This document shows, piece by piece, positions 11,652-58,987 of a stretch of 64,000 bases of DNA. Location of the stretch: assembly GCA_010015675.1 (NCBI GenBank), contig ML976994.1, positions 675,607 to 739,606 of the forward strand, written 5' to 3'. Source of the DNA: Byssothecium circinans (lineage: Eukaryota > Ascomycota > Dothideomycetes > Pleosporales > Massarinaceae). Below the pieces are notes generated by a model. It saw only the letters and a program-made list of their open reading frames with translations. It did not search any database and had not been told where the DNA came from. Numbering within the stretch: position 1 is the stretch's first letter; every line of letters starts with the position of its first letter. Position numbers and translations under genes: made by a program.

Positions 11652-13748
11652 ATGAGCCCCGTCGACCATCGTCTCCGGGAGGATGTCGCTCTCGGTGCGC
11701 AATCCTGGCCACCGCGTAAGTCAAAGGAAGTGCTTTGAAATGTCACACTTCCGACAGTTCTGTCCTGCGGCACCCAAATGATTCAAACCTTCATCTGCAT
11801 GGACCTACTAATCCTCTTCTGATAGTACTATCTCAAGCCGCTGACCATTCCTCTTCTAACTTTGAGAACTGGTGTGCGAAATTCTCAAAAGCCGGAACTC
11901 CTGCTCCTGTCCCTGCAACCGATCCGAAGCAGACCATGCTGCCGAAGACTTCACGGTCCCTGTCAACAGCTTCCGCTACCGCCTTGCGACCAAAGCTCAA
12001 GCACAAACCCTCTCTGGTATCCGAACTCCGGCACGCGCTGAAGTTCTGGGACCTATCGAAGTCTTACCGAAACCAGTCCAAAGATACGCTTAACAACGTT
12101 CAACCCTTGCTACTTCCCTCTTCCATGGAGTTCGTTAGCGACAATGCTCGAGCGCTCGCCCTCTTTGAATTAATTGAACATGGCCTGGAGAAGGTTTTGT
12201 TCTTTTGTGGTTACGGCACCTACGTGTACACTTGGAAGGACGGCAAGCGAGTGATGAAAGCCTATGCTCGCCATGACATGAGCCCGAAGAAGCTGCCATC
12301 GTGGATTACCAAGCACTACGTCCTACCTTCGACTCGAGGCGTGTCAGAACGCCGTCAAAATTACTTTCAAGGAGAGTATACTACCGCATTGGACCGCCAG
12401 GACCAAGGCCATATCTCTGCAGGTGACGCAATGTTCGACTCCTTTAACGAAGGCTTTATTGGAACTCTAGCTGGTGTGCTTGAACGAAAGGACAATGGTC
12501 GTCTTCTAGCAATGACAGCAGGCCACGTTACTCTAGTGGGAGACCTCATGATGCGAACGCACGATGTTGGACTGAACAGTACCGAACAGTTCCGCACTGT
12601 TCACCAGCCTCATCCGGCCTAGCCTCGGTCCTTTCCGATATAGTCCTGTCTCCTGAGCATCTTCGCTCGACACACAATTCATCCTTTTCTCTCGATGCTC
12701 TCGGTGCTCAGCTGTCCAACACACGACAAGAATCCCCGACTGACTGCATTTTGGCCTCCTTTAGACGAGCATATCCAATCGAAGTGGGGAGAGGACTGGT
12801 TTTACTACGAAGCCGGAATGCAACTCATCGATGATGTCGACAAATACCTTTTCGAGCACTGCCCGGGTAACGTTGATTTGTATCACTTCTCGCGACCCGA
12901 AAACAAAATCATGGAGGAAGCGACGCCCTCTGATAGTTCTGACGAGCCTGGACCTGATCAAGCGACCCTCGATGGCAAGCTTCTGGCCACAATCCACGGA
13001 GGTTCCCCGATCCGCCGTGACTGGGATATGATGGATCACTGTGATTTGATCGACGAGAATGGACATGCGGGTATAACTGTTCACAAGATGGGGGCTAATT
13101 CCGGAGCTGTGATCGGTAAACTTATAACCTTCCGGTATGTGTTTTTGGATGCAATATATCCCAAGGTTCTTCTAAATGAGTTTCACTAACTATGTAAGTT
13201 ACAAGGCACCGAAAGGATGGTATGTAGAGTCGGATTCCGAAGACGACGGCGAGTAGGAGATGTATCAAGCCCTTGGGTCCGTGTTCAGCGATGATAATGT
13301 TATGGAAAACGATAAGCGGGATACAGCAGATGATGGGGAGTACATGGCATACGACGATGGGGATATCGCAAATGATGATCAAGAGACGCCAATGGAGGAT
13401 CATGAGAAGGAAGTTGTCGAGAGCGCGAAGCTAACAGTCGATGAACAAGACCAGGAAGACAGCGACTCGAGCTCCAGTATGGACCTAGACTATCCCGAGG
13501 AAGTGAGGATGTGGGCAGCCACTGTGGTGGTTCCTGGTGTTGGTAGGGACGCTGAGTTCGGAGCCAGTGGAGACTCTGGTTCCATGGTCTACGCCAAAGT
13601 TGGAGATACAACTGTCCCAATTGGAATCCATATCGGCGGACATCGTGCGGAATACCAGCATACATACTATCGCGAAGCACTTGTGCTTTGTATGGAGGCC
13701 TTTAGTGTGGTGGCAGAACGTCATGGTTTTGAGGTTGGGTTGTACTGA
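11652..13748 (+). pseudogene. Trypsin-like protease with WDF-domain, copy 1 (broken)
   Basis: Model: exon 1 11652-11715, intron 11716-11825 (GTAAGT...CTACTAAT...GATAG), exon 2 11826-13134, intron 13135-13198 (GTATGT...CACTAAC...GTAAG), exon 3 13199-13748; 640 codons in one frame. The N-terminal family domain starts near residue 85 (LKFWDLSKSYRN) and runs through VLFFCGYGTYVYTW. The protease module has TAGH (about 250), EDWFYYE (about 343, candidate catalytic Asp) and GASGDSGS (about 580), the PA-clan His/Asp/Ser order. There is an acidic insert (DDGDIANDDQETPMED) before the Ser motif. Three in-frame TAG codons break it: 12620-12622, 12638-12640 and 13254-13256. Between about 12590 and 12750 another frame looks more protein-like (SPEHLRSTHNSSFS), suggesting compensating indels. 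Unlike its relatives it lacks the intron after the FFCG codon. Confidence 0.7.
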
Positions 13749-14000
13749 ATTCACGGATAAGGTCATGATGTCCATCTAGGTTTGCTGACCGTATTCCCAC
13801 AAATAAACACATTTGCGCATGAATACGTTCTTGTCTCTTTTTCCACCACTTCTCAAAATGACTCACACGCGGGTCGTGCACAAGGCGCGAGCACACCAAC
13901 GCGCCCACGTTCCATACATCTGAACAAACGTACTAAACAGATGTAAACACCAACGACTGTAGAACACAATCAACTCATCGACGACATTAGATTGGATAAA

Positions 14001-14170
14001 ATGGCGAAAATGAATAAGGGCAAAATAGTGTGCACACAGCCTTCGAGTGAAAATCCTACGGTAACCATTGATGATATTGTTCCAGCTAAAAGTGGGTGAG
14101 CTTATCCGTTACTGTGAGAGAGTCATTTTAAGAAGCGTCCCCACACAGCGCCGCCCAACAAACCAAGTGA
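14001..14170 (+). CDS. Possible two-exon small peptide
   Basis: The ATG at 14001 opens MAKMNKGKIVCTQ... over 95 nt, followed by a GTGAGC donor at 14096, an acceptor CACACAG ending at 14148, and a short second exon stopping at 14170 (about 39 aa). The splice sites are good, but the peptide has no recognisable feature and may be a chance frame or a relic. Confidence 0.22.
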
Positions 14171-14287
14171 CCTACAGGTCCAGTTCCGCCATTTCCTAGA
14201 AGTTCCTCCCTCCAGCTGCGAGCAGCGCCTTCAGTTGATTAGGAAGAGTTAATTTACTACTTATCTTAAAGAACGCGGCAAGGTGAT

Positions 14288-16160: not shown

Positions 16161-16909
16161 ATGCGAGGCGATCTATCTCCAATGGAACCGGAAACCACGC
16201 TGAACCACCCTACCTCACCCGCTATCGCTGACGATATGCCTAAGGCTGAGCGGGCTGCATCTGTCGAAGAAGTTGCACCACACAAAGGAATGGTCAGCAT
16301 GCAGAAAGACAAGCCAAAGCCATCAGCAGGCACAAAGAGCGTGAGCAAGTCAGATATCCGCCGTGTCGTGGCTGTGTGGAATTTCGAGAAGAGCTACCGT
16401 CAGCAAGATCGCACCACGATTGACCTGGGCGAACAGCTCCTGCTGCCTCCCCAACAGGGAAACGAGCCGACACCTAGGCGTGGGCGTGTGGCGGCTGTAT
16501 ATTCCGCGCTGCAGACATGCATCGAGCGGATTCTGGCCAAGTGTGGGTAAGTCCACCTCTAAATGCTAACTCAGTCTTAAGATTTTGTTGGCTAACTGGA
16601 AACAGCTGCCATACTTTCATCTACGGTCCGAAGTATATGATCGGCCTTACGAAGATCAAGGAAGCGACTCAGCAGAAAATCCCCAAATGGTTGGACATTC
16701 CTTACATTACTATCAAGAACGGCCGACCAACTTGGGAGCATCTACAGGCCAGCATCAAATCCGAGCAAGAAGCGTTGCACAAGGCTCATGTCGAATCTAC
16801 GCAGCGCCTGCAGGATGCCGCGCAGGCCGCGGAAGGCCCCCAACACCATGAGTTGGATCCGCCGGAGCATGCGGTTGTCTCCCAGCAAGAGGAGGTTGAA
16901 CCACAGTAG
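16161..16909 (+). CDS. WDF-domain protein, copy 2 (no protease module)
   Basis: Exon 1 is 16161-16546, the intron 16547-16605 (59 nt, GTAAGT...GGCTAAC...ACAG) and exon 2 16606-16909; 229 aa. The shared domain starts near residue 66 (IRRVVAVWNFEKSY) with TIDLGEQLLLP after it, and the intron falls in phase 2 right after the KCG codon, exactly as in copies 3, 4 and 5. Exon 2 has PKWLDIPYITI, aligned with the protease-bearing copies, and a HELDPPEHAV tail. The TAG at 16907 sits in a Gln-rich stretch, and the same frame stays open to a second TAG at 17056 (DKADLPCRDTYLK...), so the first TAG may be a mutated CAG and the original protein about 278 aa. No protease follows. Function unknown. Confidence 0.65.
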
Positions 16910-17356: not shown

Positions 17357-20300
17357 CATAGTTGTCAACAATCAAGCCAATCCAAGCTGAGGCGTTAGCT
17401 TGGATTGCTCGTTTTTTGAGGGCGTCAGCTTGGATTGTTGGGGCTAACAAGCTGAGATCGTGAGCTTGATTGAGGCTTGATAGCCTGTACTAGCGCTAGC
17501 CTTAGTGTTGAGTTTCGTCGTCCCAAGTCGCCAGCCCGCACAAAAGCTCCATATTGTCGTCGTCTGCTGCCTCCTCCTCCACTACCTCGTCGTCGCCTCC
17601 GAGGCCAGCTCTTTGCCACCATCGTACGCACTGTATTGCCGCTAGAAGTTGAGGTCCTAGACGTCGTCGTCGCGGCTCTAAGAGGTCGCCCAGCTCACTA
17701 AACAGGCGCTCACACTCACAGCTTGACGCTGGGATAGAGAGTACGTCAAGCGCAAGTTTACTGAGGCTAGGGTAGCAATCGCGCATGCTCACCCAGTATT
17801 TGATAGGGTTATCTGCGTGTTCTGTACCTCTCTCGGCTGCTGGCTCGCTGCGCTTCCACCTCTTAAACTCGTCCTCGTCAGCGGTAAGGCTACTGGCAGT
17901 ACTAGGGTTGAGTATACTATCAATCGCGTCGTCTATATCGCTTGGGATTACTGCCAACGGCCTTACCGCGCGCGGTGAGGTGTTGTACTGCGCCCAGAGC
18001 GCCTGAAAGCTAGCGTTACTGGCCTCGAGCCAGTCGGGCTTCTTAGCCCACGCCTTATCGCAGTAGTACTTATACATTGGATGGAGTATTGTAGCAGCGT
18101 AGTACGCGGGCGAGTCGTCCAGCTTAGAGTAGTAGTCATCAGCCTTCTGCCAAGCTACGCGCAAGTTAATTGTAATGTGATCCTTAGGCGACTTATCGTG
18201 CTCATTATAGTTAACCGCCTCGTACGCGTTGACGCGCTGCTCGTAGTAGGTAAGGAGGTATTTGAATATTAGAATTATCTCAGCAATAGCCCCAAAGCTA
18301 CCGCTTTTGCCGCGCCCTTTGAGGCGCTTTATAGCAGTCTTGAGCGGTTTCAATATGTCCATGTACTCTGTAATTACTGCCCAATCAGCACCTGTAAGGC
18401 CGTCTGATCGCATCCATGGCTGCGTAACTGGCAGCTTATTACCGCGACTTTACGCAAACGTGTCCTCCCTTTGCACCCGCTGTATATAGTGAGTAGCGTA
18501 GGCGTTAACTGCAAACTGTAGCTTTACAGTATGCTTAAAGCATAAGTAGTACGAGTTCCACTGCGTAATGATGGGTTTAACAGGCTTGAGGATCTTGCGA
18601 TCGTTAGCTAACGCGCTAGACGGCAGCTTAGTATAGGCGAGGCGCTGGAAGTCCTTAAAGAGCTTATGCTATTACGGCGTTTTAATGTAGTTCATGATAC
18701 TAAGTAGTACGCTGAGTGGGCCTACGCGCCTCCACTCTGCTATGAAGTCGTGCTCGTCAGTAAGCTCTTATACGTCGTTATTAAATAAGGCGGCGCTGCC
18801 CTTGCCCTAGAGGAGCGTCTAGCTGATAAGGTTAAGCATGTGAGGTCCGCAGCGGAGGCACTAGTAGGTGATATTGAAACCGTACTCTTAAGCTAATATT
18901 GTAATAGTACTATTATTGTTAGTAGCGTTATTAAGCATAAAGTAACTAATTAACTACGACGTAATCTTAAAGTCCTATAGCGTTTTTATAACGACCTCGG
19001 CCATCCTCTCGCCACTGTGAGCGCCTGTTAGCTAGGGCAGCGCTATAGGCAAGTCCTGCAGGTCGCCTCTACTATTAATAAAGTGCGCAATAACGCCTAG
19101 AAAGCCACGCTTGCTGCCCTTTATCATCCATCTATCAAAGCTAAGGTGTACTTTGCTAAGCGCCTGTAATAGTTGCAAGATAACGCGCGGCTTTAGGTGC
19201 TTATACAAGCGCGCAACGTACTGGGAGACACTTACATGAGACGTCTAAAGCGCTTATTCTGCTAGTAGGTTGGAAGCTTTAAGGAGGCGTTAAAAAGCTA
19301 GTGTTTCAAACTTAGAGAGAGGGTAATTATTCTTAACAAGCTAGCTAATAGCTGCTAGCTAGAAGCGCTGGGTATTAAAGCCAGCGAGCTCGTTAGCCAC
19401 CTTCTGCGACACGCTATTGTTGCCGTCTTTGAGCAGGCGTTGTAGCCAGGTAGGTTTTGCAGCGACGGCCGACTTACTGTAGCTATGGCCGCGCTTAGGC
19501 AGCTCTAAGTGTCGCTGCGCTGATGACGTTAAGAGCGTCGTCTCATATATCCCAACGCTAGTATCTGTGTACTTATGCTCATAGCAGTGACAGCACACGA
19601 AGTATAGCTTACTTAGGTCCTTCAGCAGCGCAACGCGGTAGCCATAGCAATAGATCCAGCTCTTACGCGACTTCTGCGACGAGAGCGGCTTCATATACTT
19701 GCGTAAACGCCCCTAATTAATTCCCTTAAAGTCGTCTATAAGGCTCACGTCCAGCGCCTCTTGCAAGGTCTCATTATCTAGGGTTGCTGCCGACAAGGCT
19801 GCTGTTACCCTCTCGCTGCCCTTAGTAGGCGCGATGATAGCGTCTTCAGGCCGCGACTCGCGTAGTTGCGACTCAAAAGTTGAAGCCTGGGACGCCTCTA
19901 CGAGACCTCTGCGAGGCGACAGACGCGACGGCGATGGCGATAGCTGACTATCGACGGCTATAGGCTGGCTGACAGTGCCGCGGGCGGTAGAGGATTTGAC
20001 GCGTTTCTTCGGGCGAGTAAGGTTATTAGAGGCGCGTTTCGTAGGAGGCATGGCGGTGGCAATACGATAAGGGCGATAGGAGTAAAAAAAATAACGCGAT
20101 AGTGGGTTATTTAGGTAGCTAGTAGAGGGAGTATAGTGTTGCAGAAGTTAGGCTAATTACGTACTAGTACTGCGACGACTACAACACCAAAAACCTATCG
20201 TAAGATTGCTCCTGCTGCAAAACGAGCAGCCTCATGCGCTACCTTAATTAAGCCCATCAAGCTAAACAATCAAGCTGACCCTCCTCAGCTTGGATTGCTA

Positions 20301-20394
20301 AAAAATTAGTATAGGCGAGCTTGACTTGATGGGATTGATAGTTATCAAGCTATCAATCAAGCGCTTGCAAGCCGCTTGATTGTTGACAAGTCTG
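17357..20394 (-). mobile_element. hAT transposon with 8-bp target duplication CTTCCCAC
   Basis: The right end reads, on the minus strand, CAGACTTGTCAACAATCAAG. The left end is CATAGTTGTCAACAATCAAG, its imperfect inverted repeat. CTTCCCAC directly repeats at 17349-17356 and 20395-20402, the 8-bp duplication typical of hAT elements. Length is 3038 bp. Subterminal sequence is full of CAAGCTT/CAATCAAG variants at both ends (for example 17390-17470 and 20260-20380). The element lies about 300 bp downstream of family copy 2. Confidence 0.93.
17502..20051 (-). pseudogene. hAT transposase (RIP-damaged)
   Basis: The ATG at 20051 gives MPPTKRASNNLTRPKKRVK. The last 303 codons (18413-17502) are uninterrupted and contain the hATC dimerisation region YPSLSKLALDVLSIPASSCECERLFSELG and the earlier AIKRLKGRGKSGSFGAI block. 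The middle (about 18420-19700) carries several TAG/TAA codons in place of Gln, so the protein is broken. It runs antisense to the host gene family. Confidence 0.88.
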
Positions 20395-20402
20395 CTTCCC
20401 AC

Positions 20403-32010: not shown

Positions 32011-32097
32011 TTTCGCTTTTCAGGCAGAAGGATCTTGGGACAATGTTTTGTGCTGTGGATTTGAGTTATTAGCATGAAAAGCGGAGGGAGAGCACTG

Positions 32098-36181: not shown

Positions 36182-36189
36182 TCCTTATG

Positions 36190-41981: not shown

Positions 41982-41989
41982 CGTACACA

Positions 41990-44765
41990 CAGTGTGGAAA
42001 GTGGATGGACTTTCGGGCCGATCCATATCTATTACGCCACTTAGATGGATCTGGATGGATTAGCCGGATGTAATCCATTCTCATCCATGGAGGCTTCTGT
42101 GGCGCACGCCACCAACTTTATAAGATAGTAGATGATGATCTATCGTTGCTATATACATAATTATGATGGCGTTAAGCTTTTCCTGAGGTCAATAATGCCC
42201 GCCTTATCCCAGGAGTGTAAACACTGCACCGCTTATATTGTACTCTAGTTAAGATGATTGCGCCGCTTCGTGATTATCAGCCCAAGTCAGCTGAATATTC
42301 GCTCGGGCTCATCACTTATTACTAGTATTGACAATATGTCGAAGGCCATCTGCGCAAGGTGTGGATATTTAGTAATACTAATAGTACGCCACCATTCCAG
42401 CGGATACCTAGTGTTAACTTGTACCTAGCTATTATAGCGCTCAAACTTATTAGCAATCACTTGTTTGACGCCTTAACTTTAAGCTTAAGTTAGCCCTCTC
42501 ATGCGGTACTCTTCTATCATGTTTGGTTCCTGTTAACTCTGCTTCTTTGGTAGCAAGATAGCTTCTAAGATTAGTTGCTGCTTATAGTCAGCAACCTATA
42601 GGGCTTTAACTGCTCTCTTGCCTTTTATAATCTATAATTTCTGATTAGCCCATTAAGCGTTAATATACTTCTAAGTGTATGAAGGATGGAGTACAGCAGC
42701 TACTAGATATGCGGGTAAGTTACTAAGTTTAGCATAGTATTCTTTAGCCTTATTAAGCGCGAGTTTAATCTGAGTGGTGAAATGCCATTCTTCTTTAGTA
42801 GTAGCTAGTGAAGCATCTTTGTACTAGCCATACGTGATCGTAAAATGTTTGATAATGCATTTAATGTCTGCCTAAACGTTACTAAGTCTATAAGACTTGC
42901 CGTCACCTAGCTGACCCTGAAGATCTATCGTCGCCGCCTAGCATAGCTTAAGGAGATCTTTATACTGGATAAGTACTTCCTAGTCGTCTTTATTAAGGGC
43001 GTCCTTAATAATAACGTTCTGCGTAGCATCTTCATCTTTAGCCCACTAGCCCTTACTCTTCTCTTTTAAAGCTCGCTGTTACTCAGACTCCAGGAATTCT
43101 TTAAAAGGTGCTTGTAGTTTGCAGAGCATCTTAATCTCCTCGTAGATACTATTCCAGTGAGTATCATTGCTTCTATGAAGCTCGCGCGGCTTAATTATAT
43201 GCCAAAGACTCAGGTCAATTGCTGACTTATAGTAGCTAACTTGTGCGTTATGCTAATGTTTTCTTCTTTATAGACTTATATATATCTAGATGATAATATT
43301 ATAAGCTTTTCTAACTGGCCTAGTCCTTCTCTAGCGCTTCAATTCATCCTTTAAGTCCGCCGACACAGAATCCTCAATTTCGAAGAGATTCTTGTTAAAA
43401 CCAAACAAGAGATGACGAGCGATCAAGTTAATGATATAGCCTGCGCAGCGCAGGCGGCGCTTACTTACTCTAAAACTGAACTCCTCTGCAATCACTTCCA
43501 TTGCCGTATCATTGTTTGAGGCGTTATCCAGTACAAAGAAGCCTAACCTGTCTTAGATGCTAAAGTCCCTAATCACTTAAATAACCTGCTCAGCAATGTC
43601 AAGCCTAGCATGTAAGCTACTCTGCTTAGGTGTCGCCAGGAGAATTGCTTTAGATTTAAATTCAGCATTAATAAAGTGTGTAACTATGCCATTAAGTGAA
43701 AGACAATTGCTAGAGGTCCAGAGGTTAAATAAGATGTGGATCTTGCTAATCGTAGTCTATAACTCCTACTTCATAGCCGCCTTATAAATCTAGTATGCCT
43801 TTAGCATCTACTTACGGACTGTTAGATGACTAGGCAAAGCATCACCTACGCGTGGTAAGAGATACTGAATAAGCTCGCGAAATAGTTTACTATCAACCTG
43901 CTAAAATAGAATGTTGTTATAAATGATCTATCATACAAGTAGCTCCTAGAATTTCGCTTCATTAAATGCTAGCGCAAAGTTATTAAGTATTGCTTATTCG
44001 TGAGGCTGGGTCGAGTCCAGGTTAGACGGCGCTAGTATACTTAGCGGAAGTAGTACGATCTCTCTCTTCTTATTAAAGGTTTCATTATGGACCTTACGTA
44101 TATGATTAGCGGGATTCAAGCTGCCTTATTCAACGTTAAAGCGGTGGCGCCGTAGCGTATCATTAGTGGTGGTATGGTAGCGAAGGCATAACTACTAGCG
44201 CTTATTTATTGTAGTATGTTTAATTGGTACACTAACTCTCTAGATGCCTAAGATTAACTTGTGTAAAGGCCGCGCAATTAGAACACTAAAGCCTAGCAGT
44301 CACTTCTAGTTAACCTTGCTGTAGTCAAAGTAAGATGGCTCAATTAGAGGAGGCTCGCCCTAGTGCGCTTTCTTGCTAGATTTAGAGTTAAAGGTTGGCA
44401 CATTAGTAAGACTTGAGGCGGCAGAAACAATGCTTGAAGTACTACTAAGGGACGGCGATGGCGACGGCGAGAGACCATGTGATCTCATGATAGTAGCATA
44501 GTATAGATCCTAAGGAGATTTAAAGACTAGTTTAGTAGTATTAAGCAAATTCTGACAGTCTATGTTGAAGATGTGGTGTGAAAGACGTGTGATTCATTTA
44601 GGAGACTTCTAAACAGTCACCTATAAAAGCTAAAGGCGTAAGCCACCATCGCCTCCATGGATTATTTTTAGATAGATCGGCACAACTATCCCAAATCCGG
44701 ATATCTATGGTAATAGATGGATCTGGATGGATTGGCCAATGCACAGCCATCCGCTTTCCACACTG
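41990..44765 (-). mobile_element. hAT element, copy B, complete, target duplication CGTACACA
   Basis: The ends are CAGTGTGGAAAGTGGATGG at 41990 and the matching inverted end CCGCTTTCCACACTG at 44765. CGTACACA repeats at 41982-41989 and 44766-44773. It is 2776 bp and contains no gap. On the minus strand a decayed transposase is recognisable, for example RRLRCAGYIINLIARHLLFG near 43440, with stops throughout. It is the same family as nested copy A. Confidence 0.93.
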
Positions 44766-44773
44766 CGTACACA

Positions 44774-45732
44774 GTGGTGGCAGAAACCACAGCCACGGGG
44801 AAGTCCGCACATTTCGATTCACACTTTTTTAAGCTATGCTACCTGTGTATTCACCGCACGAAATTTGAACATTATCTTTCCTACACTACTCTCATCTAGG
44901 TGGTGTTTTTGAATGAAAGGAAGACCATAACAACCGTCTTCTACCGTAGCGCGCAACCATGAGTGGGTGGATGAGTTTTTCAGTACTCTCAGGGGTGAAT
45001 AGATCTTAGAGCTCAATCAATTTTCAAATATATCTCTAAGTAGTATTATATATAAGTAAACCTTATATAGTAAATCTATCTTAAGATTGTGAAAGGATCT
45101 TAGGTGTGATACAGTATCTGAGCTCTATCAAGGGTGAGATAATCTCTAAGCTCTGTCACACGCAATGCTATATTAAAGGATAGATATGATATCAAAGGAT
45201 ATAATATAATATTAAAGGCGTAATATTATCTCACTATTAGTATTAATAGTAATTATTCTATTAGTGTTGCTCTATCTTTAGCATCCTCGGATATGCTCGC
45301 AGGGGGTGAATGTCAACCCTTTGTTGCTGCACTCCTTTAAATAATGACCGCATTAGTTCTATATATATATAAGCCATTGATAAGGCTATTCTAGCTATAG
45401 ATAACGTTGCTGTATAGCGTTGGGGTGTGTATGTGCTGTATAATAGAATAGGAAGCCACTAAGGTCAGCCTAGTGCACTGCTCCTTCCTCAATTTATATC
45501 TCTAACAGAGCTCCGACAGAGCTCAGAGGCGATCTTAGCCCTAACATGATCTCCAATATAAAGTGTTTGTACAGTACTGTCGCACTTATAAATCTACATC
45601 ACGATTTAGAGTCTATGTTAAAGTGTGATTGGAGTGAGTTACCGCTGTACAGCGTCTTCATTAACCCTATGAAGCGCGGTACGGTAGCAACGACAGCACC
45701 ACGTCACTATAGTGGACGAGCTCATGATGCAA
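44774..45732. other. AT-rich stretch, no gene
   Basis: The part 45001-45300 is very AT-rich with TATTA/AATATTA runs. The part 45310-45511 begins TGTCAACC and ends TCTAACA like an LTR but has no matching flanks. No coding sequence recognised. Confidence 0.5.
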
Positions 45733-46650
45733 ACACAGAACAAGAATCTGCGAACGGATAAATTTTGGCCTCCTCCAAAGAAGAGTAATCAATTGGTTTG
45801 GGGAAGGGTACTAGGTCTGATATAAACCAGAATGTAATGCACCGATAAGGCTGACAACCCCTCTTCTAGCGCTACCTAGGAAAGGTTGGCTTGTATTACT
45901 ACTCGCCACCCGCCAACCTAAAACTGCAGGGTTCGGCGCCCAGCTCCGGTGGTGCTCAGGAGCCTGAGCCTGATTTAGCGCCCCTTGATGGCCGTCTTTT
46001 AGGCGGGTGGGATGGCTCAGTAGTAGAGTGCTGCAGCCTTGGAAAGCTTTTAAGAGAAAGCGTAGGTTTGAATCCTACTCCTATCACAAAAATCACTCTA
46101 CAGAATTTTAAGGCTCTCTCCACACTTTGTGCTTAAAAGTCGCTACCCCTTATCTCTCTCCTTAGTAAGGCAACTATCACTACCCGTTTAAGCTTACAGG
46201 GGTTTCCCCTACCAAGGTTTTTCCCTACAAGATACGGGTATACTTAATCCGCTACTAAAGCGCGGTGCAGAGGGAAGAGAGTGTAGAAGTAGACCTAGGG
46301 GGGGCGGAGGGGGGGTATAGAGGGGAGTACGGCACGGCTAGCTTAAGCAGGTATCTAGGGACCTATAGGTAACTGGCGTCTTTTAAAGGAAGGAAAGCAC
46401 AGGACAGGCTCTCCATAAGGGAGCAGCTATAACAAGAAATGCCCTTATATAAAAGTGTGCTTGGCACGTCTATTATGCCCTATAGGAGGCTCTATGTAGA
46501 TAAAGGCCCCGGCCAAATCTATAGGACGAAAACTAATACCAACCAACCAACCAACCGTCTTTTGGGCGCAAACTTTTGGAAATGATTGATCGCTGTAGTG
46601 AGATTGAAGAAAATGATCAGGTGGGTACAACCGTTCATCATACGGGGTCT
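45733..46650 (+). pseudogene. Protease-module relic, copy 6, interrupted by a SINE
   Basis: Segment 45733-46004 reads KNLRTDKFWPP and, in a shifted frame, GLYYYSPPANLK...EPEPDLAPLDGRLLG, matching copy 1 at 12725-12980 (FWPPLDEH, VDLYHFSRPENK, GPDQATLDGKLL). After the 552-bp SINE it continues as DRCSEIEENDQVGTTVHHTG (46588-46647), matching copy 1 DHCDLIDENGHAGITVHKMG. The His and Ser regions are not visible, so only the middle of the protease module survives, with stops and shifts. This is a non-functional fragment. Confidence 0.7.
46005..46556 (+). mobile_element. SINE-like element with tRNA-type head and (CCAA)n tail
   Basis: The 5' part (46008-46088) has a Pol III A box (TGGCTCAGTAG), a B box (GGTTTGAATCC) inside a perfect GTAGG/CCTAC T-stem, and acceptor-like ends GGTGGGA and TCCTATC that pair with two wobbles. 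The anticodon arm does not fold properly, so it is tRNA-derived, not a tRNA gene. The element ends in AACCAACCAACCAACC. It is flanked by GTCTTTTAGGC (45994-46004) and GTCTTTTGGGC (46557-46567), an 11-bp target duplication with one difference. Length is 552 bp. The insertion splits a protease-family relic. Confidence 0.85.
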
Positions 46651-47868
46651 TGACACTCTAGTTGCTGGAAAGAAATCTTCGATAGGATTATCTCTTGTCA
46701 ATTTTGCGGTCGACTGCACGCTATATCCTGCAAGTCCTGTAGCACCCTCAAACCGATCTCAAATATATATCCCCACCTTTCATCAACGGACGACGCCTTT
46801 CGGTTTACACTTTCGATCTTCGAGAAGTCGAGTAAAATAGCTCTTTGTATAATACGGAACCAACTGCTCTGCAGTATATTGCTTATGCTATACCAAAAGG
46901 AAGTACAAATTGGGATTCAACCCACGCCTTGCGATCGTCAGTAAGAGCGAAATAGTACGCTCTGAAAGACCTCACGACGGTGATTTCTAAGAAGATAGAG
47001 GGGGAGCAACATTTGAAGCTGAAGTCTAGGTTTGGGGAAGGCTTTGAAGGCATGTTCATTCTTAGCATACAGATTGTTTCTACCTGCTAGCAGTTCGCTT
47101 GTTTTATTAGGCTTGCGTAGAGTCAGCGTTACGATGATACGGCCCAATATATTTCGGTATATAGATTGGATCCTTCAAACTCTAATATTTGCATTCTTGG
47201 CTTTCGATACCAACTACATGTCTGCTCACTATGCTCAAGCGAAAGCCTGCAAGTGTGCTAGCGCCAATCCTTCAAAAACAGTGAAAAAATGAGAAGGGTA
47301 TGTGTCTTACATTATGATAGTCATCTGAGCCTTCAAAGGTATCTCAAAATCCTAAGTTTCGTCTGATTTCCTTGGCCATCAAGGGCGCTATCGGACTGGT
47401 CATAACATGGAAGCCATGAGGATCAGTATTCCAAAATCCATGCATAAATTGTGCTACCATAACGGCGGTAATATAATAGTGCGCGAGAAAGAAGCATGAG
47501 AAATAGCAGGCGGTTATTTTAAGGGGCTTGAGGGGTGATGGAACAAACGCGACCATGTTGTATCATATGTGAGTCATTACATCAGCACATACACCATGAC
47601 AAAAGCGCGTAAATCCAAACGGAGTAGAGTGCACGGCCTCAATTCACCCTCGTCGGCATAAAGGCCTTGCATGGAAAAAGAGCCAGCCTATTCCACCTTC
47701 GCTCCAGCACCACCATTGACAACAACCACCCCGCCCCTGCACAACCACAACCTGCACTTCCTTTCCACGCCAAGGCTTCCACGTTCAGATATACCAACCT
47801 AACGCCCGCCTGCAGCTTTTCCAGTAACAAACAACAATAACAACTTCAACCCTCACCCGCCCCGCGCA
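46651..47868. other. Stretch with no recognised gene
   Basis: Two minus-strand frames (47068-46883, FLEITVVRSFRAYYFALTDD; 47556-47344, FLAHYYITAVMVAQFMHGFW) have protein-like composition but no ATG-led model. They could be a decayed gene. From about 47640 the C/A-rich sequence is probably the promoter/leader of the protease gene starting at 50958. Confidence 0.4.
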
Positions 47869-48146
47869 CTCCCATCCAGAGATGTCAACAGTCAGTCCGG
47901 ACTGACAAGACTGACTGACTGACTGGTATATAGCAGTCAGTCCAGTCAGTCCGAGGCCATGATTTATAGCAGTCAGTCAGTCTGAAGGCCTTAGACTGAC
48001 TAGGACTGACTACTATCAGACTGGTATATGCCGTATATTTAATGGAGAGAATCTCACGATAGTTTTATAGTGTTGAGGTCTCTAAGCCTTAGGCCAATTT
48101 GCCTAATCAGGTAATATAAGCGAGATTAAGCTAATAGTAAACATCA

Positions 48147-50417
48147 TGACGCGTATCAACGGGCTGCTATCACCTACCTTTACCCATCCACTAACGCCTA
48201 TCCTACGCTATTTTAAAGCCCTAGATGAACAGCAACCTCAAGAAGGTCTCTAGGGAGACCATTGCGCGCGAATACCATAGAAATCCACCCTAAAAAGCGC
48301 CCTCTATCGCGCCTGCCGTCGAGACGCCTGTTGACCCTCCGGATGACGCGATTCAAGCTGCTCGAGCCCTCGCACCCCTCGATGATGATAGCGACGACCA
48401 TCTACTTGAAGGCCTTAACTGGGCGCGTGTCCCTTACCTACAGAAGCGTTTTACGCAGCATCTAAAGGGCAAACCAAGCTAGATATACGAGTACGGCTGG
48501 CCTATTTGGCACCGCGAGAAGCAGCAGAACTACTAGCTCTGTCACTATTGCCACACGCATAAAATTAGCGGTGGCGAGTACTGCGTCGCGAGCTCCACGT
48601 CCTCAGCTGCTTCTCATCTTAACCAGAAGACGCGTGGTCATAGGATTGATCGTGATGGCAAGATTAACTTTCAGCTTCCTATAGTAACTAGCTCTATCGT
48701 CAACCAGCTCCAGTTCAAAGGCGTCAAGATCTCGCAAGAGGTAGCTAACCAGATGGCCTCTAGCTTCTCACAGAAGCGCTTCCTCGACGCTGTAAAAGAC
48801 TAGGTGCAGGCCGACAACCAGAGCCTCCAGATAATCGAGGCGCCTACTTTCCGCCGTATGATCGCTGCTGCAAACCCACTGGCAGAGCAGGTCCTCTGGC
48901 GGAGCCACAATACCCTTCACGATCATATTTTGGCTGAATACCACGCCTATATCCCCGCTGTCGCAGAGCACCTCCGCCGCGCAAAGTCGCTTATACACGT
49001 ATCCTTTGACAATTGGACTTCGATAGGCGGCAAGCGCGCTCTCACTGGGATCTGTGTACACCATCTGAATGAGGCAGGCAACGTTGAGGACTACCTGCTC
49101 GGCCTTCCAGTCCTACATGGCAAGCACTGTGGCGACAATATTGCTGAAGTGGTGAGTAAGACGCTTCAAGCCTTCAGCATCGACAAGCAGCGCGTCGGAT
49201 ACTTTGTGCTCGATAACGCGACAAATAACGACACGGCCATGACTGCTCTAGGTGATGAGTATAGCTTCTACGCTCCTCACCGTCGGCTCCGTTGCACCTG
49301 CCATGTTCTCAACTTAGGCGCCCAAACGATCATTTGGGGCAAGGACAGAGAGTCCTTTGAGAACGAGGATGAGAATCTACTAGTAAAACAGCCCTCTACG
49401 TTTCTTACTTTTCATAAAACTTGCTAACCCGTCTGCTAGGCAGAGGAGAAGTTCCTTGAGGAGTGGCGCAAATACGGCCCAATCAGAGTTCTATTCGACG
49501 TAATCGCATCAGTTTGCTCACCTCAAGCTCGCGAGCTATTAAAGAAGCTTCAAGAAGAGGAGGCTAGTCGCCTACGCGAAGAGTTTAAGATGAGAGAGCT
49601 AGTTAAGCCAGTCAAGACGCGGTGGAACTCGTACTTTGCGGCCTTAGAGAGGGCTATAGAGCTTCATGGCCCGCTTGACGATTATATACATATTAAGATC
49701 AATAAGAGTCGAGTTGAACAAGCTTCTCAGCGTCGCGATCCCCAGAGGCCTCGCTCAGAGCCTAGGGTCTTTGTCCGTGAGGGTGGCTTGTCAGGCAATG
49801 ACTGGGCGACGATTACTAAGTACGTTAACCTCCTCCACCCATTTCAAGAGGCTACAAAGCTGCTTGAAGGCAGAGGTAAACATGGCAACCACGGTGCGAT
49901 TTGGGAGGTTCTTATCACCTTTGAATAGCTACTCGATCAATTAGAGGAGCAGAAAGATCGCCTCGCTGCTGTCGACTACGAGGACCCGGATGCCCCAGAG
50001 GATCACCTAGTAATGAACGTTAACTTAGCCCATGCAAAGCTCTCAGCGTACTACGCGAAGCTTGACGACTCGCCTATCTACTACGCAGCTACAGTCCTCC
50101 ACCCACACTACAAGCACCATCTTGAGGCTCTGTGGAAGGTCCCAGATAATCACTATGAGAGCGTTGACGGCCCTCACTACAAGAAGGACTGGCTCCCTAG
50201 AAACAACAAGGCCTTCCAGGCCTTGTGGCGATCATATAAAGAGAAGGCTGCTCATGAAGCTGGCAAAGAGTCTCCACCAGGACAGCGTCCCTCGAAGCGG
50301 CAGCGGCTTGGCCCACCGTCGTCGCGATCAACCTTTCTTGCAAACTCTATGAAAGCAGCCATGAAGTCAATAGAGGAGACGCTTAACGACGAATATGAGG
50401 TCTAGAAGAGGCAGCCT
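48147..50417 (+). pseudogene. hAT transposase (mostly open, C-terminus in gap)
   Basis: A BED-like zinc finger (LCHYCHTHKI...) is followed by long open segments with IHVSFDNWTSIGGKRALTG, GYFVLDNATNND, HRRLRCTCHVLNLGAQTIIW, VKTRWNSYFAALERAIEL and AYYAKLDDSPIYYAATVLHP. An intron (49383-49439, GTAAAA...GCTAAC...GCTAG) joins ENLL to AEEKFLEEWRKYGP. A few TAG codons (for example 48478, 48801, 49926 and 50403) break it. The hATC end falls in the gap. It is the least damaged transposase in the window. Confidence 0.85.
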
Positions 50418-50782
50418 NNNNNNNNNNNNNNNNNNNNNNNNNNNNNNNNNNNNNNNNNNNNNNNNNNNNNNNNNNNNNNNNNNNNNNNNNNNNNNNNNNN
50501 NNNNNNNNNNNNNNNNNNNNNNNNNNNNNNNNNNNNNNNNNNNNNNNNNNNNNNNNNNNNNNNNNNNNNNNNNNNNNNNNNNNNNNNNNNNNNNNNNNNN
50601 NNNNNNNNNNNNNNNNNNNNNNNNNNNNNNNNNNNNNNNNNNNNNNNNNNNNNNNNNNNNNNNNNNNNNNNNNNNNNNNNNNNNNNNNNNNNNNNNNNNN
50701 NNNNNNNNNNNNNNNNNNNNNNNNNNNNNNNNNNNNNNNNNNNNNNNNNNNNNNNNNNNNNNNNNNNNNNNNNNNNNNNNNN
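50418..50782. other. Assembly gap (365 N)
   Basis: Unknown bases inside the hAT element. Confidence 0.99.
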
Positions 50783-51769
50783 AGTCCAGTTTAGACCTCC
50801 TCTGCTTACGTTAGCAGTCAGTCCAGTCAGTCCGGCGCCTCTAAAAATACCAGTCAGTCAGTCTCGAGCCCTCCAGACTGACTGATTGACTGTTGACAAG
50901 TCTGCTCCCATCACGATTACCTGAAGCTCACTTCATCTACACGAGCAGGACAGGAAGATGCCACCTCGTCCTATCCCTCAAGATGAATCCTTGCACAACG
51001 CATCACTGCAGTTGCCTTCATCACGTGAGTACTCCCAGAGCCTCTACCTCTATCAAGCTGACTAATTAGTGCATCCACCAGGTGCCTCTTCGCCATCGGA
51101 TCCTCAGGAGCTTCAGCACTCTACAATACTGAACACAGACCTCCCGGCCCAAGGTAAGTCAGCATGCGCCCAGAAGACGTATGATACCCTTGTTCTTAAG
51201 TGACTTTATTAAAACTGTCTCTCCAGGCGCGACAGGTCCTCCAAAGCCACCGAACTACAAGCCCTTCCATGTGACTGGACTTCGACGTATATTGGAGCAC
51301 TGGGACTTCTCAGAGCCGTACAGCAACTAGAAGGCAGCCACGATAGCCTACGCCAAGACCCAGCTCTTCAGCTCTGATGTCAAGTTCCAAAACGGAGGTG
51401 AGGAGGCAGTGATGATCTACGACAAGCTTCAAGACGGAATGCATAAAGTTTTCTTTGCTTGCGGGTATGAAATTCTTCCTGACTCGTCTCAAACTTTGTT
51501 GATCTCTTTTAGTTACGAAACCTACGATTACACGTGCCATGAAGGCAAGCCCAGACTTGGCAACAATCAAACAGTCAGTCCAGAGAGCGTACGGACTATT
51601 TGACTGCGTTTTCGAGGCCGCTGGACTGTTTGTTTGACTGCCAAGCTTTTCAGCGTGAATTGAGACTGTTTGACTGTTTGACAGAGTACGTGGCTTTTGG
51701 ACTGATTGATTGACTGATTGATTACTTATTTGCGTTACCTATACTCAAACTGCTCTAGTTGAGCTTCGA

Positions 51770-53061
51770 TTTTGCTTAAGTCGTCAAGAGAGGTCTCCAA
51801 AGTAGTAGAAGCGTTGGTAGTTGCCAAACGTTTGATGCCTGCTCTCCTCCAGGACTTAACCGACTGTAGGGCGGAGATGAGATCAGGCTTCATACGCAGG
51901 CGTCAAGGGCCTAAGAGGTCTCCAAGCTCACTGAACATCCTCTCACAGTCAGCAGAGGAGGCTGGTATCGAGTAAATATCGAGCGCAAGCCTAGACAGCG
52001 TAGGAAACTGCTTCTCCTGAAGAAGCTAGTACTTGATAGGATTGAGCGAAAGCAGATCATCCTCTGTGAGTGGTGTTTGGCGCTTCCAGACTTCGTATTC
52101 ATCCTCAAGGGCCTCCTCTACTTGACGGAGAGCTGCCTTCATAGAGTTTTCGAGAAAGGCTGAGCGGCTAGCAGATGCTGATATACGTGGCTTTTTAGCT
52201 GGGCGTGGATCGCTGGGAGAGCTCCTGCCCGACTCAGCTGCCAGCTTCTCCCGATAAGATCTATATAGCTTCATGAAGCCCTTGTGGTTATTCAGCAACC
52301 AGTCTCTCTTATAATGAGGGCCATTTTTCTCCTCGTTGTAGTCATCTGGTACACTCCACAAAGCTTCTAGATGGAGCTTATAGTGTGGATGGAGGATCGT
52401 TGTGGTGTAGTATATCAGTAAGTCGTCAAACTTCTGGTAGTACTTAGCCAACTTCGCATGGGCTAGATTAATGTTAACTGCCAGGTGATCCTCTAGGGCA
52501 TCAGGATCGCTGAAGTCCACCTTTTCAAGTCGTGATTTCTGCTCTTCAAGCTCGTCAAGAAGCCACTTGAAAGTAATAACTACTTCCCAGATAGCTCCAT
52601 GGCGGCCGACGTGGCCTCTGCCCTCTAGTAGCTTTATAGCTTCTTTAAATGGACTTAGTAGCTTGATGTATTCGCTAATCGTCGCCCAGTCCTTAGCCGT
52701 CAATCCTCCTTCTTGTATGAATAACCTAGGCTTAGCGCGCTGCAATTGTGTATTGCGACGCTGCGAGGCCGCCTCTACTCTAGCCTCGTCAATCTTTATA
52801 TGGGTGTAGTCGTCAATAGGACCGTGAAGCTAGGCAGCTCACTCCATGGCCCTATAATAGGAGTTCCACCAAGTCTTGATAGGGCGTATAAGCTCATAAG
52901 TCTCTAATAATAACTTGCCTAGCTGCTTGGCCTCCTGAACTTGTAGCTTCTTAAATAACTCTCGGGTTTGCGAGGTACAGATAGACGCGATAATATTAAA
53001 TAGTACACCAATTGGGCCGTACTTTCGCCACTCATTGAGAAACGCTTCTTCTTCCTAGCAA
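51770..53061 (-). pseudogene. hAT transposase, C-terminal half
   Basis: A 239-codon open stretch (52745-52026) has GGLTAKDWATISEYIKLLSP, IKLLEGRGHVGRHGAIWEVV and YYTTTILHPHYKLHLEAL. It is followed by the hATC region (TLSRLALDIYSIPASSADCE, RMFSELGDLLG). It is separated from its N-terminal half by the nested element. Confidence 0.85.
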
Positions 53062-53069
53062 GTAGTTAG

Positions 53070-56000
53070 CAGTGTACTTCATGTGTGGGCTAGCCCACTT
53101 AGCCCATCCAGCCCATCTAGCCCATACGGCCCGGGCCAGCCCATGGGCCATATGAAACACGGTGAACGTCGTCTGATTGGCTAGTTAGGTGTTTTACTAT
53201 AGTTTCGTATAGTTTCAGATGGTCAGGGATTACAGTGAGGCATCAAAATCCAACGTCAACTCATCACGGTAATAGCCCTTAACCACTAGTATATACGTAT
53301 TTGTATCATTTTCAGAAGTCTCCTATTAAAATGAGGTTACGAAGCGGGCAACACCCCCTAAATACACCCCCCCCTCTGTCAGATGGCCAATTATTGAGCA
53401 GCTAGCCCTCTTTGGTGCCCCTAACGTTGCCCTCGTCGTCGTTTTCCGTCCCATCTACGTCATTCAAGATTTACGAGGATAATGACGCTGAGGAGGCCCT
53501 TACTAAGCTAGAGAGCGAGCAGGTCCCTTGCCCTATAGAGTTTTAGGTCACCAACGAGGATAGTGAGGTCGTACATGCCAAACTAATAGGCGCCTTTTAA
53601 GCCCTATACGACTACTCCTTTGTTAACTAGTCTTTAAAGCGTATAGAGACTCTCCATTAGTTATCACGCCCCCACTAAATAACTGCTTAGTGGTAGAGCT
53701 ATGGGGTTCCATTATCAGGGTTAGTCGGGCAAGATAGTAGCCTCTAGTTCTTGTGTCACTCGTGCCACGTTAAAGGCTATAGTAATTACCTATATAAAGT
53801 GAATACAGGGAGCAGGGCAGTACTAGGCTACTTCAGGAAGTCACATACATTAGTTTATATGGCGGCGTTAAATGATCCTGTACCTACGTTTGAAAAAGCG
53901 GCCACCCTCGACCTACTAGATAGAACTGACCCCTAACAACGTGAGGTCTACGTTTAGATGCAAGAGATATTTAAGCTAGAGGTACTTCAAAGGGACATCC
54001 TTTAGTAGGTAGTGTATGACAATATCCCTTATCGCAAGCTTGAGAGTGTTCACTTTCATCAGATCGTAGCCCATATGTTCCCATTTATTAATCAAGAGGT
54101 TATCCCGTCAGCCAACACCCTTTCACGCTGGATTCAGAAGGAGTACATAGCCCATAAGAAGGAGATCTGGAGTGTAATAAGTAGGGCTATTAGTAAAATT
54201 CACCTATTATTTAACCTTTGGACGAGCTGTAGGAGGAAGGCTTTGAATAGGATTACAGCACATTTTGTAGACGAGAACCTTTGGTGCCAAACCATACTTC
54301 TAGCCCTCCCAGAGATGGACGATACCCATAGTGGCAAGAACATAGCGGTATGTACGCTTAAGGTTATTAAGGACTATAAGTTTAGTAAGAACGTCGGCTA
54401 CTTTATACTAGATAATGCCTCTTTAAACGACGTAGCCGCTAACGACCTATGCCTTAAGCTTAGTTTAAACAACTGACGGCTCCCTTGTTCTAGCCATATA
54501 CTTAACCTAGTTGCACAAGCTATGCTATACGGCAAGGACTTTAAGGTCTTTGAAAGGGAGGTTGCTCATATAAAGGACTTCAAGAGCGAGGTTGCCCTCT
54601 AGAGAAAGAGGGGGCCAGTTGGCATGTGCCATTCAATTAGCCTATGGATTAATAGGAGCCTAGGACGAGTTAAGCGCTTCAATCAGGTGCAAGAGAGCGT
54701 ATAGAAGGATGAAAATCCTCAATCCCAGGGTGCCCTAGTACTGTATTCGTTAATTCCAGCCAATGCTATAAGATGGAACTCTACTTTTAATGAAGCTATA
54801 TGATTTATACGCCTCCGCAACTCTATTAAGGAGTTTCTGGACGTAGAAGCGCTTTAATATAGTAATTTAGTTGCTGCTAAAGAGAAAAGACCACTTAACG
54901 AGAAACTAGAGGACTTAGTTACCTGAATAATATTCTAGAACTATATAGGGAGCGACGACTAGGCTATACTTACTAAGATTGTTGAGTTGCTCAAACCTAT
55001 TAAGGAGAGCACTAAAAGGCTTGAAGGGAGACCAGACGAGAGTAGTGCTAAGGGAATTGCAGAGGTGTACCCGTTAATGGCACTCATATTAGCTAATTTT
55101 GAAAAGCTAAAGGCTTAATATGAGAAGTCTAACACCCCTGACGGAAAAGCTCTCTAGGCGGCAATTGAACAGGGATGGAATAAGGCTAACAAGTATTATA
55201 GCAAGCTTGACAACTCCCTAGTATACACGGTAGCTGTATTTCTAGACCCGCAGCTTAAATCTGAGTACTTAGCAAAGGAGTGGAAAGAGGAGGAAGCTAC
55301 GTAGCAAGTACAGAAGGTGCAAGAGCTATAGGAGAGTAATTACCGTTAACTATCTCTACCTAAACTAGCCACTGTACTCTAGGAGACGTCTGCTAACGTT
55401 TAGTGGCATAAGAAGCGTAAGTATAGCTCTATGGCTAAGGCTCTTGATTAGTCCTATAGTTTTCCCCTCCTAAAGAAGGCTATAGATGAGTTTGCCGTAT
55501 ACATGGCAAGTACGCGAGATATAGATAGGGACCTTGTGCCATTATAGTACTAAAGACGGCCTGACGTACGTGCAACGTACCCTACGCTTTCCTATATAGC
55601 TATCGACGTCCTAGCTATCCCAGCCATGAGCTCCGAACCAGAGAGAATTTTCAGTCAAGCTAGAAATACACTCACTGCCCGTCGAAACCGCCTCTCTGAA
55701 CAATCCATAGAGGCTGCCCTTTGTTTATTAAGCTAGGGCAACTTAGGGCTCATTCAAATGGGGCTCCATAACTAGGAGCTCCATAGCAGTAGAAGCGCTG
55801 ATTTAAACTCCCTAATCAACACCAGTGAGGGCAACGTTGACGGCGAGGTTCTTTTTTAAGAGAATTGGGCGGAGGTACTACAGGGCATGAGGGACAAACA
55901 ATAGTAGTAAACAGAGCGTGAAATATATACTATGGGGCAGAGTATTAAATTATTAGTGACAACTTTCAACTCTCTAAAAATAGCCCCGTAAACACTTTCA

Positions 56001-56190
56001 CTAATACTAAGCTTAACACCAAGGGCCTCTAGGGACCTAATATTGCTGTACGTTTAAGCTTTCTACTACGTGTGACCCTTTGCCCATACAAGTTAGTACT
56101 ACAGGGGGGTCAGTTTCAGTTGGCCCATGGATTAGCCTAGGCTGCCCGGGCTAAATGGATGGGCGGCCCATCCATCCATGGAGTTCGCTG
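53070..56190 (+). mobile_element. Nested hAT element, target duplication GTAGTTAG
   Basis: The ends are CAGTGTACTTCATG at 53070 and the inverse of CAGCGAACTCCATG at 56190. GTAGTTAG repeats at 53062-53069 and 56191-56198. The subterminal regions are rich in GCCCA/TGGGC words (AGCCCATCCAGCCCATC). Length is 3121 bp. It belongs to a different hAT family from its host element. Confidence 0.93.
53400..55860 (+). pseudogene. hAT transposase of the nested element
   Basis: An open 154-codon part (54012-54476) has IHLLFNLWTSCRRKALNRIT and VGYFILDNASLNDVAANDL. Further on are the SSHILNLVAQAMLYGKDF block and the hATC end YIAIDVLAIPAMSSEPERIF, SQARNTLTARRNRLS. Numerous TAG/TAA codons break it. Confidence 0.85.
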
Positions 56191-56198
56191 GTAGTTAG

Positions 56199-57367
56199 CA
56201 GGCGGCAGGAAAGTAAGGAGGCTAGACGCTTAGTTTTACCTATAAATTTAAGTCCTTATTCTTAAAGGCTTCCTTATCTTTACCCCATATCACTAATTGA
56301 GCGCTTAGGTTGAGGATATAACATGTACAGCGGAGTCGTCGATGGGGCGCCCAGAAGTTGTACTGTGTAGCTAGCGCGTTGACAGCTGCGTCATTATTCG
56401 TCGCGTTATCAAGCACGAAGTAGCCAAGTCGCGATTTGTTAATATTAAAGATCTAGAGAGTCTTACTTATAATGTAGGCAATGTTCTCACTAGAGTAGCA
56501 GCCGTAGAGCTGCGGTAGCCCAAGCACATAGTCCTGAATGTCGCCCTGCTCGTCCAGATAATGTACACATATCCTAGTGAGAGCGCGCTTGCCACCATAC
56601 GTAGTCCAATTGTCAAAGGATATATAGATAAGGGATCGGGCCTTCTTCAGGTGTTGCGTAACGGCCGGGATCATCGCGTGGTATTCGCTCAGGATATGGT
56701 GGCTAAGAGAATTGTGACTCCGCCAAACTGACTGCTTTGCAATAGGATTAGCAGCTTTAATTAGCTGGCAGAAGGCAGCAGTTTCTACGACTCAGAGCGA
56801 CTAGTTATCGGCGACTATCTAGTTAATAAGCGCGTCCTAGAATCGCTTCTATGAGAAGCTTAATGCCATCTCATTTACTAGCTTCTGTGATACTTTAACA
56901 CCATTCCATTATAACTAATAGATGATCAAGCTTATACTTAGCAGCAGGTTAAAGCTTATTAGCCCATCCTTATTAAATCCGTGGCCTGGAGTGTTAGTAG
57001 AGAGGTATGTACTAGTAAAGGAAGTTAATGTGTGTACGTTATATTCGCCACGCGGCATTTTGTAGATATGATAATATTTGCAGAGCCACCACCTCTTTTG
57101 CTTCCTGCTATGCCATAGAGGCCACCCGTATTCATATATCTAGCTTGTAAAGCCTCTCTTGCTGTCCTCTTTTCATTACTATAGGTGTGGGACACGTCTC
57201 CACTTAATGCTATTAAATTACTTGTCGCGATTATCGTTATCTATTGGTTAGACTTCATTGGGCTCATCATTAAGTTTAGGAGCAAGGGAGGGCGATATTA
57301 GGGCCGTATTTTTATGGTTTGCGCGTGTAACACGCTCGCTAAAGACTCTTTTCGCGTTTCTGTTCAT
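56199..57367 (-). pseudogene. hAT transposase, N-terminal half
   Basis: The ATG at 57367 gives MNRNAKRVFSERVTRANHK. Further on are IYISFDNWTTYGGKRALTRI (about 56630) and RLGYFVLDNATNNDAAVN (about 56390) in decayed sequence. It is the other part of the transposase at 51770-53061. Confidence 0.82.
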
Positions 57368-58987
57368 ACTATAGAGCAGCGTAGATGTGGGAGGGCGCGT
57401 AGAGTAGAGAGTATAGGTAGAAGTAGCTAGGTGTTAATGGTAGAAGCTGTGTTATTAAAAGTTTAGGTAGAGCTGCCTATTTAGGTAAGGCGTTAGATTT
57501 TTCGCTCTCTAAAACCTTAATACTAAAAAAGTATCACGACTTTAGGCTATATATTGACATCGATTTATCCACTAAATCTACAAGAAAAAAGGCTATATTT
57601 AGCCAATCAATCAATCAGTCTGGCAACTTTCAGACTGTTTGATTGGATAATTAGAGCCCTTCAGACTGTTTGACTGATTGCTTACAAAGCAATCAAACAA
57701 TCAGTCTGACTTTTTCAGACTGATTGTTGCCAAGTCTGGGCAAGCCCGCCATCGAGATATACCCAAGCAAGGGGGGCGCGACGCGGAAGCTACCAAACTG
57801 GTTACCCAAGACCTACATCATTATCAAGCCTCGTAGAGCGATGGGAGTGTATATCAACCACGCTCGCTCTGATATAGATATATTCCGGAAGCCAGGCGAT
57901 TCAGACGACTCAGACGACGAGGAAGGCAGCGCCGCACCGGATGATGATGGCGGCAACAACTCCGAGGCCGATTAGAGCACGATTCATATGACGGTGACCG
58001 CATTCAGCCGCGATAACAAGGACCTAATAATTTCTGGTGACACACTGTTCGATGGTCTGATGGACACTTGTGAGGGCACGCTTGGTGCTGCCATCGAGCG
58101 ACTGCGTCCTCAGGGTAAGGACCTTATAGGTATTACCGCAGGACATGTCTTGGAACGTGCCCACGAATTTCTCATAAAGACGAAGAACCGGAACGTCATG
58201 TTGGATTGCAAATGGCCGCCTCCATCTGCACTACTCGACATCGACTCATGGGTGGACTGGGCGCGCCTAGAGTGCGGCATTTTAGAAATTGCCCAGGCCG
58301 ACAAGACTCTGTTCAAAGGATTTGAAGGGGACGTTGACCTCTATCACTACTCGCGATATAGGATACCCGATTCCGTAGATGGGCGCCTGATCGATCATAC
58401 CTACGATCGAGCAAAAGACCTTCAAGTGAGGTGTTCGAAGGGCGGAATCACTGTCTTCAAAGATGGGGCCCAAACCGGGAACACCCAGGGAAAGATCGTA
58501 CGCATTCGGTGAGTATTTTTTAACGCCACTACATGCAGTCTTCACATTTTAATGTAGTGCAACGTGCTAACATACATCTAGATACAAAGCCCCACCGTCC
58601 TGGTATAACGTGCCGTTTCCCGCCGAGCCCGATGCTACGGACAATGGCGCCCAACATGTGTTCGAAAATGACAGCGGGCTAGCAGAAGTGGCTGACGAGT
58701 TATGGACCGATGAAGAATTGGAATACGACTTCGATGACGATGAGTCCGACACTGACGAGATCCCTACTCCCAGGCCATGGCTCGCGACTTTACAGCACAA
58801 TCCATCGTTTGCAGATCATGGAGACTCGGGCGCGTTGCTGTATTCAAAGGTCGAAAATACTAAGGTCCCAATCGGTCTCTGGCTTGGCTCCACTGCGGAA
58901 CTAAAGGTTAACGAAGGTCTGGTACTTGGTCTAGATTGTTTTGGGTTCCTAGGGTTAGAGAACAGGTGTCGATATCGGTTACTCTAG

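Follow-up and report, generated by a model that had tools for sequence, protein, structure and literature searches.

Family of linked genes in Byssothecium circinans

The window analysed here is a stretch of 64,000 nucleotides from the fungus Byssothecium circinans (Pleosporales, Massarinaceae), positions 675607-739606 of contig 18 in an assembly of 48.4 Mb and 109 contigs. It contains seven copies of a gene family that is real, is in decay, and had no name before within the reach of the searches made. Protease-bearing (P) genes encode an N-terminal domain and, after it, a module that carries PA-type serine protease motifs, and domain-only (D) genes encode the domain alone; c2, c3, and c4 are D copies, while c1, c5, c6, and c7 are P copies or fragments of them. 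It is well supported that this is a small orphan family with two kinds of member at one site in the assembly. When the c1 protein was searched against the window, the other four domain loci were matched (E 9e-11 to 3e-4), in agreement with a first-pass annotation that had placed the domain at 11.65, 16.16, 38.5, 40.4, and 50.96 kb, and the copies recognise one another at the protein level. That annotation was also right that an unnamed domain is fused to a PA-type-motif module in some copies and stands alone in others, no profile search having given a known family. It had counted six members, all on the plus strand; both statements were wrong, since c7 is a seventh member and is encoded on the minus strand (39545-39039).

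All family matches in the 48.4-Mb assembly fall inside the window (single-protein searches, among the best candidates scored), and searches of 5.8 billion proteins with family proteins, at limited, word-based sensitivity, returned nothing beyond the B. circinans locus. P and D copies are neighbours at c1-c2, c3-c7 (convergent), and c4-c6, and a 157-bp stretch 5' of c1 recurs between c4 and c6 at 76% identity. This adjacency and the repeat fit the duplication of an old P-D unit, for which they are thin evidence. The best nine-residue hydropathy at the N-terminus is -0.08 to 0.49 in the five copies whose start can be recognised (c6 and c7 have none and were left out), compared with 2.42 in a likely secreted neighbour used as a control. 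As had been claimed earlier, the family proteins lack a signal peptide; they were probably intracellular.

N-terminal domain and domain-only genes

The shared domain spans about 140 residues, is helical, and has 13 invariant positions across c1, c2, c3, and c4 (R-W-K-Y-Q-T-LLL-R-L-P-W). An AlphaFold model of the domain has a mean predicted local distance difference test (pLDDT) score of 70.6, with blocks of 67-91 across residues 51-150, and a predicted fold of three helices, two strands, another strand, and a long C-terminal helix. Comparisons of the domain with sequence families (including Pfam), solved structures, and folds placed it in no family and turned up neither a solved relative nor a convincing fold match.

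Two of the D genes are open throughout. The first, c2 (16182-16909, plus strand; exons 16182-16546 and 16606-16909), is present in the public annotation as P0002 (222 aa, hypothetical protein CC80DRAFT_549309), with which our model agrees at 100% identity; the second is c4 (40512-41178, plus strand; intron 40886-40949). The third D gene, c3 (38530-39015, plus strand; intron 38748-38798), is open across the domain, has its ATG (38530) within the terminal repeat of a hAT transposon, and has a C-terminal tail that runs on in a different frame. A phase-2 intron follows the C-G pair of the domain at one and the same position in c2, c4, and c5 (read by eye); c3 has it at the equivalent position, and c1 is without it. 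After the domain, c2, c3, and c4 have a tail in common that is not found at that place in the protease copies.

Putative protease module

The c1 copy (11652-13748, plus strand) encodes the domain at about 12017-12322, followed by TAGH at 12515, EDW (Asp at 12794), and GDSGS at 13569. An in-frame TAG at 13254 lies between the Asp and Ser parts; a 69-nt stretch (13220-13288), without a branch-point match, is a candidate intron that would remove it. An intron is also required within about 12580-12740, where canonical sites are absent. The c5 copy (50958-58987, plus strand) consists of a domain half (51229-51551) and a protease half (57739-58987) with a hAT element between them, and carries in-frame TAGs at 51328 and 57973. 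Its open end (57988-58987, intron 58509-58581) is the public protein P0001 (308 aa, hypothetical protein CC80DRAFT_505494), to which our model is 100% identical; the public annotation covers the last 308 residues alone, a caution in that automated annotation retained only this remnant of c5 as a gene. The single gene of 527 codons first proposed for this copy does not stand, as the hAT element at 51552-57738 and both TAGs lie inside it.

The other two P copies are fragments of the module: c6 (45685-46655, plus strand) is degenerate and has a short interspersed nuclear element (SINE) at 46006-46554 within it, and c7 (39039-39545, minus strand) is truncated and convergent with c3. They are 79% identical across 313 aligned bases, with a score of 163 versus 12.0-17.5 for ten shuffles of c6. 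The protease-module fragment reported earlier at 45.7 kb is thus present but not continuous, being split by the SINE.

The modules of c1 and P0001 are 36% identical and have in common TAGHV, DW, GITVxKxGA...G...GK, and GDSG followed by VPIG. Both contain the ordered blocks TAGH, DW, KxGxx[TS]GxxxG, and GDSG (in the motif reading of c1, X was placed at the stop and at two exon junctions), and the order TAGH, DW, GDSG noted earlier is indeed present in c1 and, near 58 kb, in the copy that starts at 50.96 kb. Of 300,000 shuffles each of c1 and P0001, none contained the four-block pattern, and 32 and 1, respectively, contained TAGH plus GDSG alone. Since the pattern was written after the sequences were seen, this test shows only that composition fails to explain the motifs.

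We take the TAGH/DW/GDSG order to be that of MEROPS clan PA, the chymotrypsin/trypsin-like proteases. As in serine proteases of this clan, the putative His (TAGH), Asp (DW), and Ser (GDSG) follow one another with KxGxx[TS]GxxxG ahead of the Ser and a strand-like VPIGxxxG after it; the KxGxxTGxxxG block is presumably similar to one found in bacterial S1 proteases. Unlike them, the family has no family profile at cut-off, an N-terminal domain without a known family, and an acidic spacer ahead of GDSG (85 residues with 21 Asp+Glu in P0001, 129 residues with 38 in c1).

The best Pfam match of P0001 is Peptidase_S64 (PF08192), at residues 246-267 around GDSG (E 0.01). A divergent signalling protease of the Ssy5/S64 type, acting in nutrient sensing, would account for this sub-threshold match and for an intracellular protein with an N-terminal regulatory part, as described for Ssy5 (PMC12958826). 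The Ssy5 prodomain remains associated with the catalytic domain, which it keeps inactive until it is itself degraded (PMC12958826). However, the match is weak, is found in c5 only (one of the two members), covers about 22 of 692 profile positions with nothing beyond them, and scores 14.8 bits (P0001) and 10.7 bits (the piece) against a cut-off of 23.6. The family, moreover, has several copies and is in decay, which would be unexpected of a conserved nutrient sensor; an origin of this type is very unlikely.

Past coding constraint

Identity at codon positions 1, 2, and 3 is 0.50, 0.60, and 0.37 between the modules of c1 and c5, and 0.56-0.65, 0.63-0.66, and 0.38-0.42 in pairwise comparisons of c2, c3, and c4. 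In simulations of neutral drift of c2 (300 per level), stop-free runs made up 3.7%, 0.7%, and 0.3% at 75%, 60%, and 50% identity. This codon-position pattern and the rarity of stop-free neutral runs show that the copies were genes for most of their history.

Transposon insertions and decay

Four hAT elements are present at the locus, each with an exact 8-bp target-site duplication. Element 1 (17357-20394, 3038 bp, duplication CTTCCCAC) lies 447 bp after c2 and encodes a hAT C-terminal dimerisation domain (17502-18413, minus strand, E 1.2e-19); elements 2-4 are tied to it and to one another by DNA similarity. The right end of element 2 (32810-38541, 5732 bp, CCAAAAAT) falls within exon 1 of c3, element 3 (47877-50904, 3028 bp, CTCCCATC) is 53 bp ahead of the c5 ATG, and element 4 (51552-57738, 6187 bp, GGCAAGCC), with matching terminal repeats, lies inside c5. 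Element 2 and element 3 each include a run of N (32943-33467 and 50418-50782, respectively). The hAT terminal repeat has 65 + 62 occurrences in the assembly at up to one mismatch, versus 0 for a reversed control. On C2, C4, C8, C9, C13, and other contigs, terminal repeats are often paired in inverted orientation at a distance of about 3.0 kb; other pairs cover about 160 bp and look like short non-autonomous derivatives.

The SINE inside c6 (46006-46554, plus strand, 549 bp) is headed by a tRNA (Rfam match at 46006-46086, 42.7 bits) and has a 14-bp direct repeat on either side (45992-46005 and 46555-46568, 93%). Its family has 29 further matches in the assembly (30 including the c6 copy), nine of them nearly full length. 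An AT-rich repeat of 2.7 kb is found, at 92% identity, at 33468-36180 within hAT element 2 and at 42052-44764 between c4 and c6, and a 1-kb piece of it has nine matches in the assembly, itself included.

All four P copies are disrupted (c1 with reserve, an unusual intron being possible), as is one of three D copies (c3, which was entered by a transposon). Decay of the cluster is well supported, with stops, truncation, hAT, and SINE insertions in the P copies and a hAT element at the start of one D copy. Even if it is merely decaying, the locus is a compact case of the dismantling of an orphan cluster, with four hAT elements and one SINE within or at most 0.5 kb from its members.

Such damage could mean that the D copies are truncated duplicates of P genes with no role in trans, left by a protease family collapsing under transposon insertion. 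The majority of copies are damaged, and c3 begins inside a transposon and has its tail out of frame, both consistent with this explanation. However, c2, c3, and c4 have their own common tail and have diverged under coding constraint. The domain-only genes were therefore probably long maintained as genes, and their origin as mere truncations is somewhat unlikely.

A putative regulated protease and its alternatives

We tentatively favour, at a probability of about 0.4, an orphan family of intracellular PA-type proteases in which the domain would regulate the enzyme and free copies would act in trans, the whole now decaying. In P proteins the N-terminal domain would be a regulatory part or pro-domain that keeps the enzyme inactive or directs where it acts, much as the Ssy5 prodomain does. 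D proteins may associate in trans, through the same domain, with P or with a partner of P, and serve as inhibitor, adaptor, or decoy. The common domain, the linkage of the copies, the order of the motifs, and past coding constraint are observed, whereas enzyme activity, contact between domains, and the direction of regulation are predictions of this scheme. If it is correct, fungi use a domain of no known family to regulate a trypsin-like enzyme inside the cell, in some proteins as a fused part and in others as the product of a separate gene, and a PA-type member would join the S8 and CHAT proteases already linked to fungal cell death.

Several results weigh against the regulated-protease reading. 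In addition to the S64 scores below cut-off in P0001, c1 has no Peptidase_S64 match in Pfam and nothing else of note. Pfam scans gave no match of PF00089 or PF13365 to P0001, c1, or the family pieces, and searches of the assembly with these two profiles matched other genes and none at the family locus. The AlphaFold model of the module, built from a four-row alignment, has a mean pLDDT of 36.1 and a predicted template modelling score (pTM) of 0.20, too low for it to show a catalytic fold. Protein searches found no homologue that would show the pairing of P and D in another species. The difference in damage between P and D copies is not significant (one-sided Fisher p ~0.14, by hand), and the longer P genes are larger targets for damage.

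The first-pass annotation had named two results that would refute its proposal, and neither was obtained: profile searches gave no known family for the domain, and the structure model of the module was poor (pLDDT 36), with a double beta-barrel neither confirmed nor denied. The motif order is present but fold and Pfam support fail, and the module is therefore called PA-type by motif only, a candidate rather than a proven assignment. A module that is not a protease, or that was a pseudoenzyme before decay, its motifs being chance or non-catalytic, is consistent with the absence of family, PDB, and fold support in the searches run. Four ordered motif blocks retained in two copies at 36% identity, together with coding constraint between those two copies, argue against it, and we consider it quite improbable.

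The P copies could alternatively encode a cell-killing intracellular protease at a self/non-self or killer locus, with D as antidote or allelic partner and the decay of P with D kept as an end stage. Clustered divergent paralogues in transposon-rich surroundings would suit such a locus, as would damage to four of four P copies while two of three D copies are whole, although that asymmetry is not significant. Wtf, a poison-antidote system to which the locus may be compared, is not a protease, and no sequence relation to it was seen, no search aimed at one having been made. The wtf meiotic drivers are multicopy, associated with transposons, and partly pseudogenised (PMC6526906), and a wtf suppressor works by mimicking the antidote (PMC6283613). 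A second analogy comes from fungal gasdermins, which neighbouring protease genes control; about 63% of gasdermin genes lie beside S8 and 19% beside CHAT protease genes (PMC10197012; PMC12881547). Those clusters (HET-Q1/HET-Q2 and relatives) resemble the B. circinans locus in having intracellular protease genes with small partner genes (PMC10197012, PMC12881547). However, the proteases of those clusters belong to S8 or CHAT rather than being PA-type, and they are paired with a gasdermin, whereas the partner here is the protease's N-terminal domain in a separate copy. A survey of fungal NOD-like receptors lists Peptidase S8 among N-terminal domains, with no trypsin-type domain in the portion considered (PMC4986451).

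The family pieces and models scanned had no Pfam match to NACHT, NB-ARC, HET, S8, or CHAT, and neither these pieces nor the 20 of 57 other open reading frames of at least 120 aa that were scanned (introns not modelled) had a match to gasdermin, HET, or NACHT. With the P copies disrupted and no homologue found elsewhere, these results give no support to the working sensor/effector or self/non-self pairs proposed in the first-pass annotation. A killer locus is improbable, and still more so a new kind of fungal poison-antidote or self/non-self system, in which transposons and stops would have disabled a PA-type killer in this isolate, leaving two genes for a free N-terminal-domain antidote or allelic partner. 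An immune or self/non-self role of the family is possible. Neither the Ssy5 nor the gasdermin-cluster precedent makes the B. circinans family a member.

Surroundings of the copies

Genes for MYG1, ICE2, and a hexapeptide-repeat transferase adjoin and separate the family copies. Of 32 two-kb windows, 10 gave a positive index of the repeat-induced point mutation type, and nine of these 10 lie over mapped transposon or repeat DNA. The fast-changing compartment suggested earlier is therefore an apt description of only part of the window. The likely secreted protein (31378-32010, minus strand) starts with a clearly hydrophobic stretch and matches no Pfam family at E 0.01. A 97-bp tandem duplication with 91% identity is present at 30997-31190.

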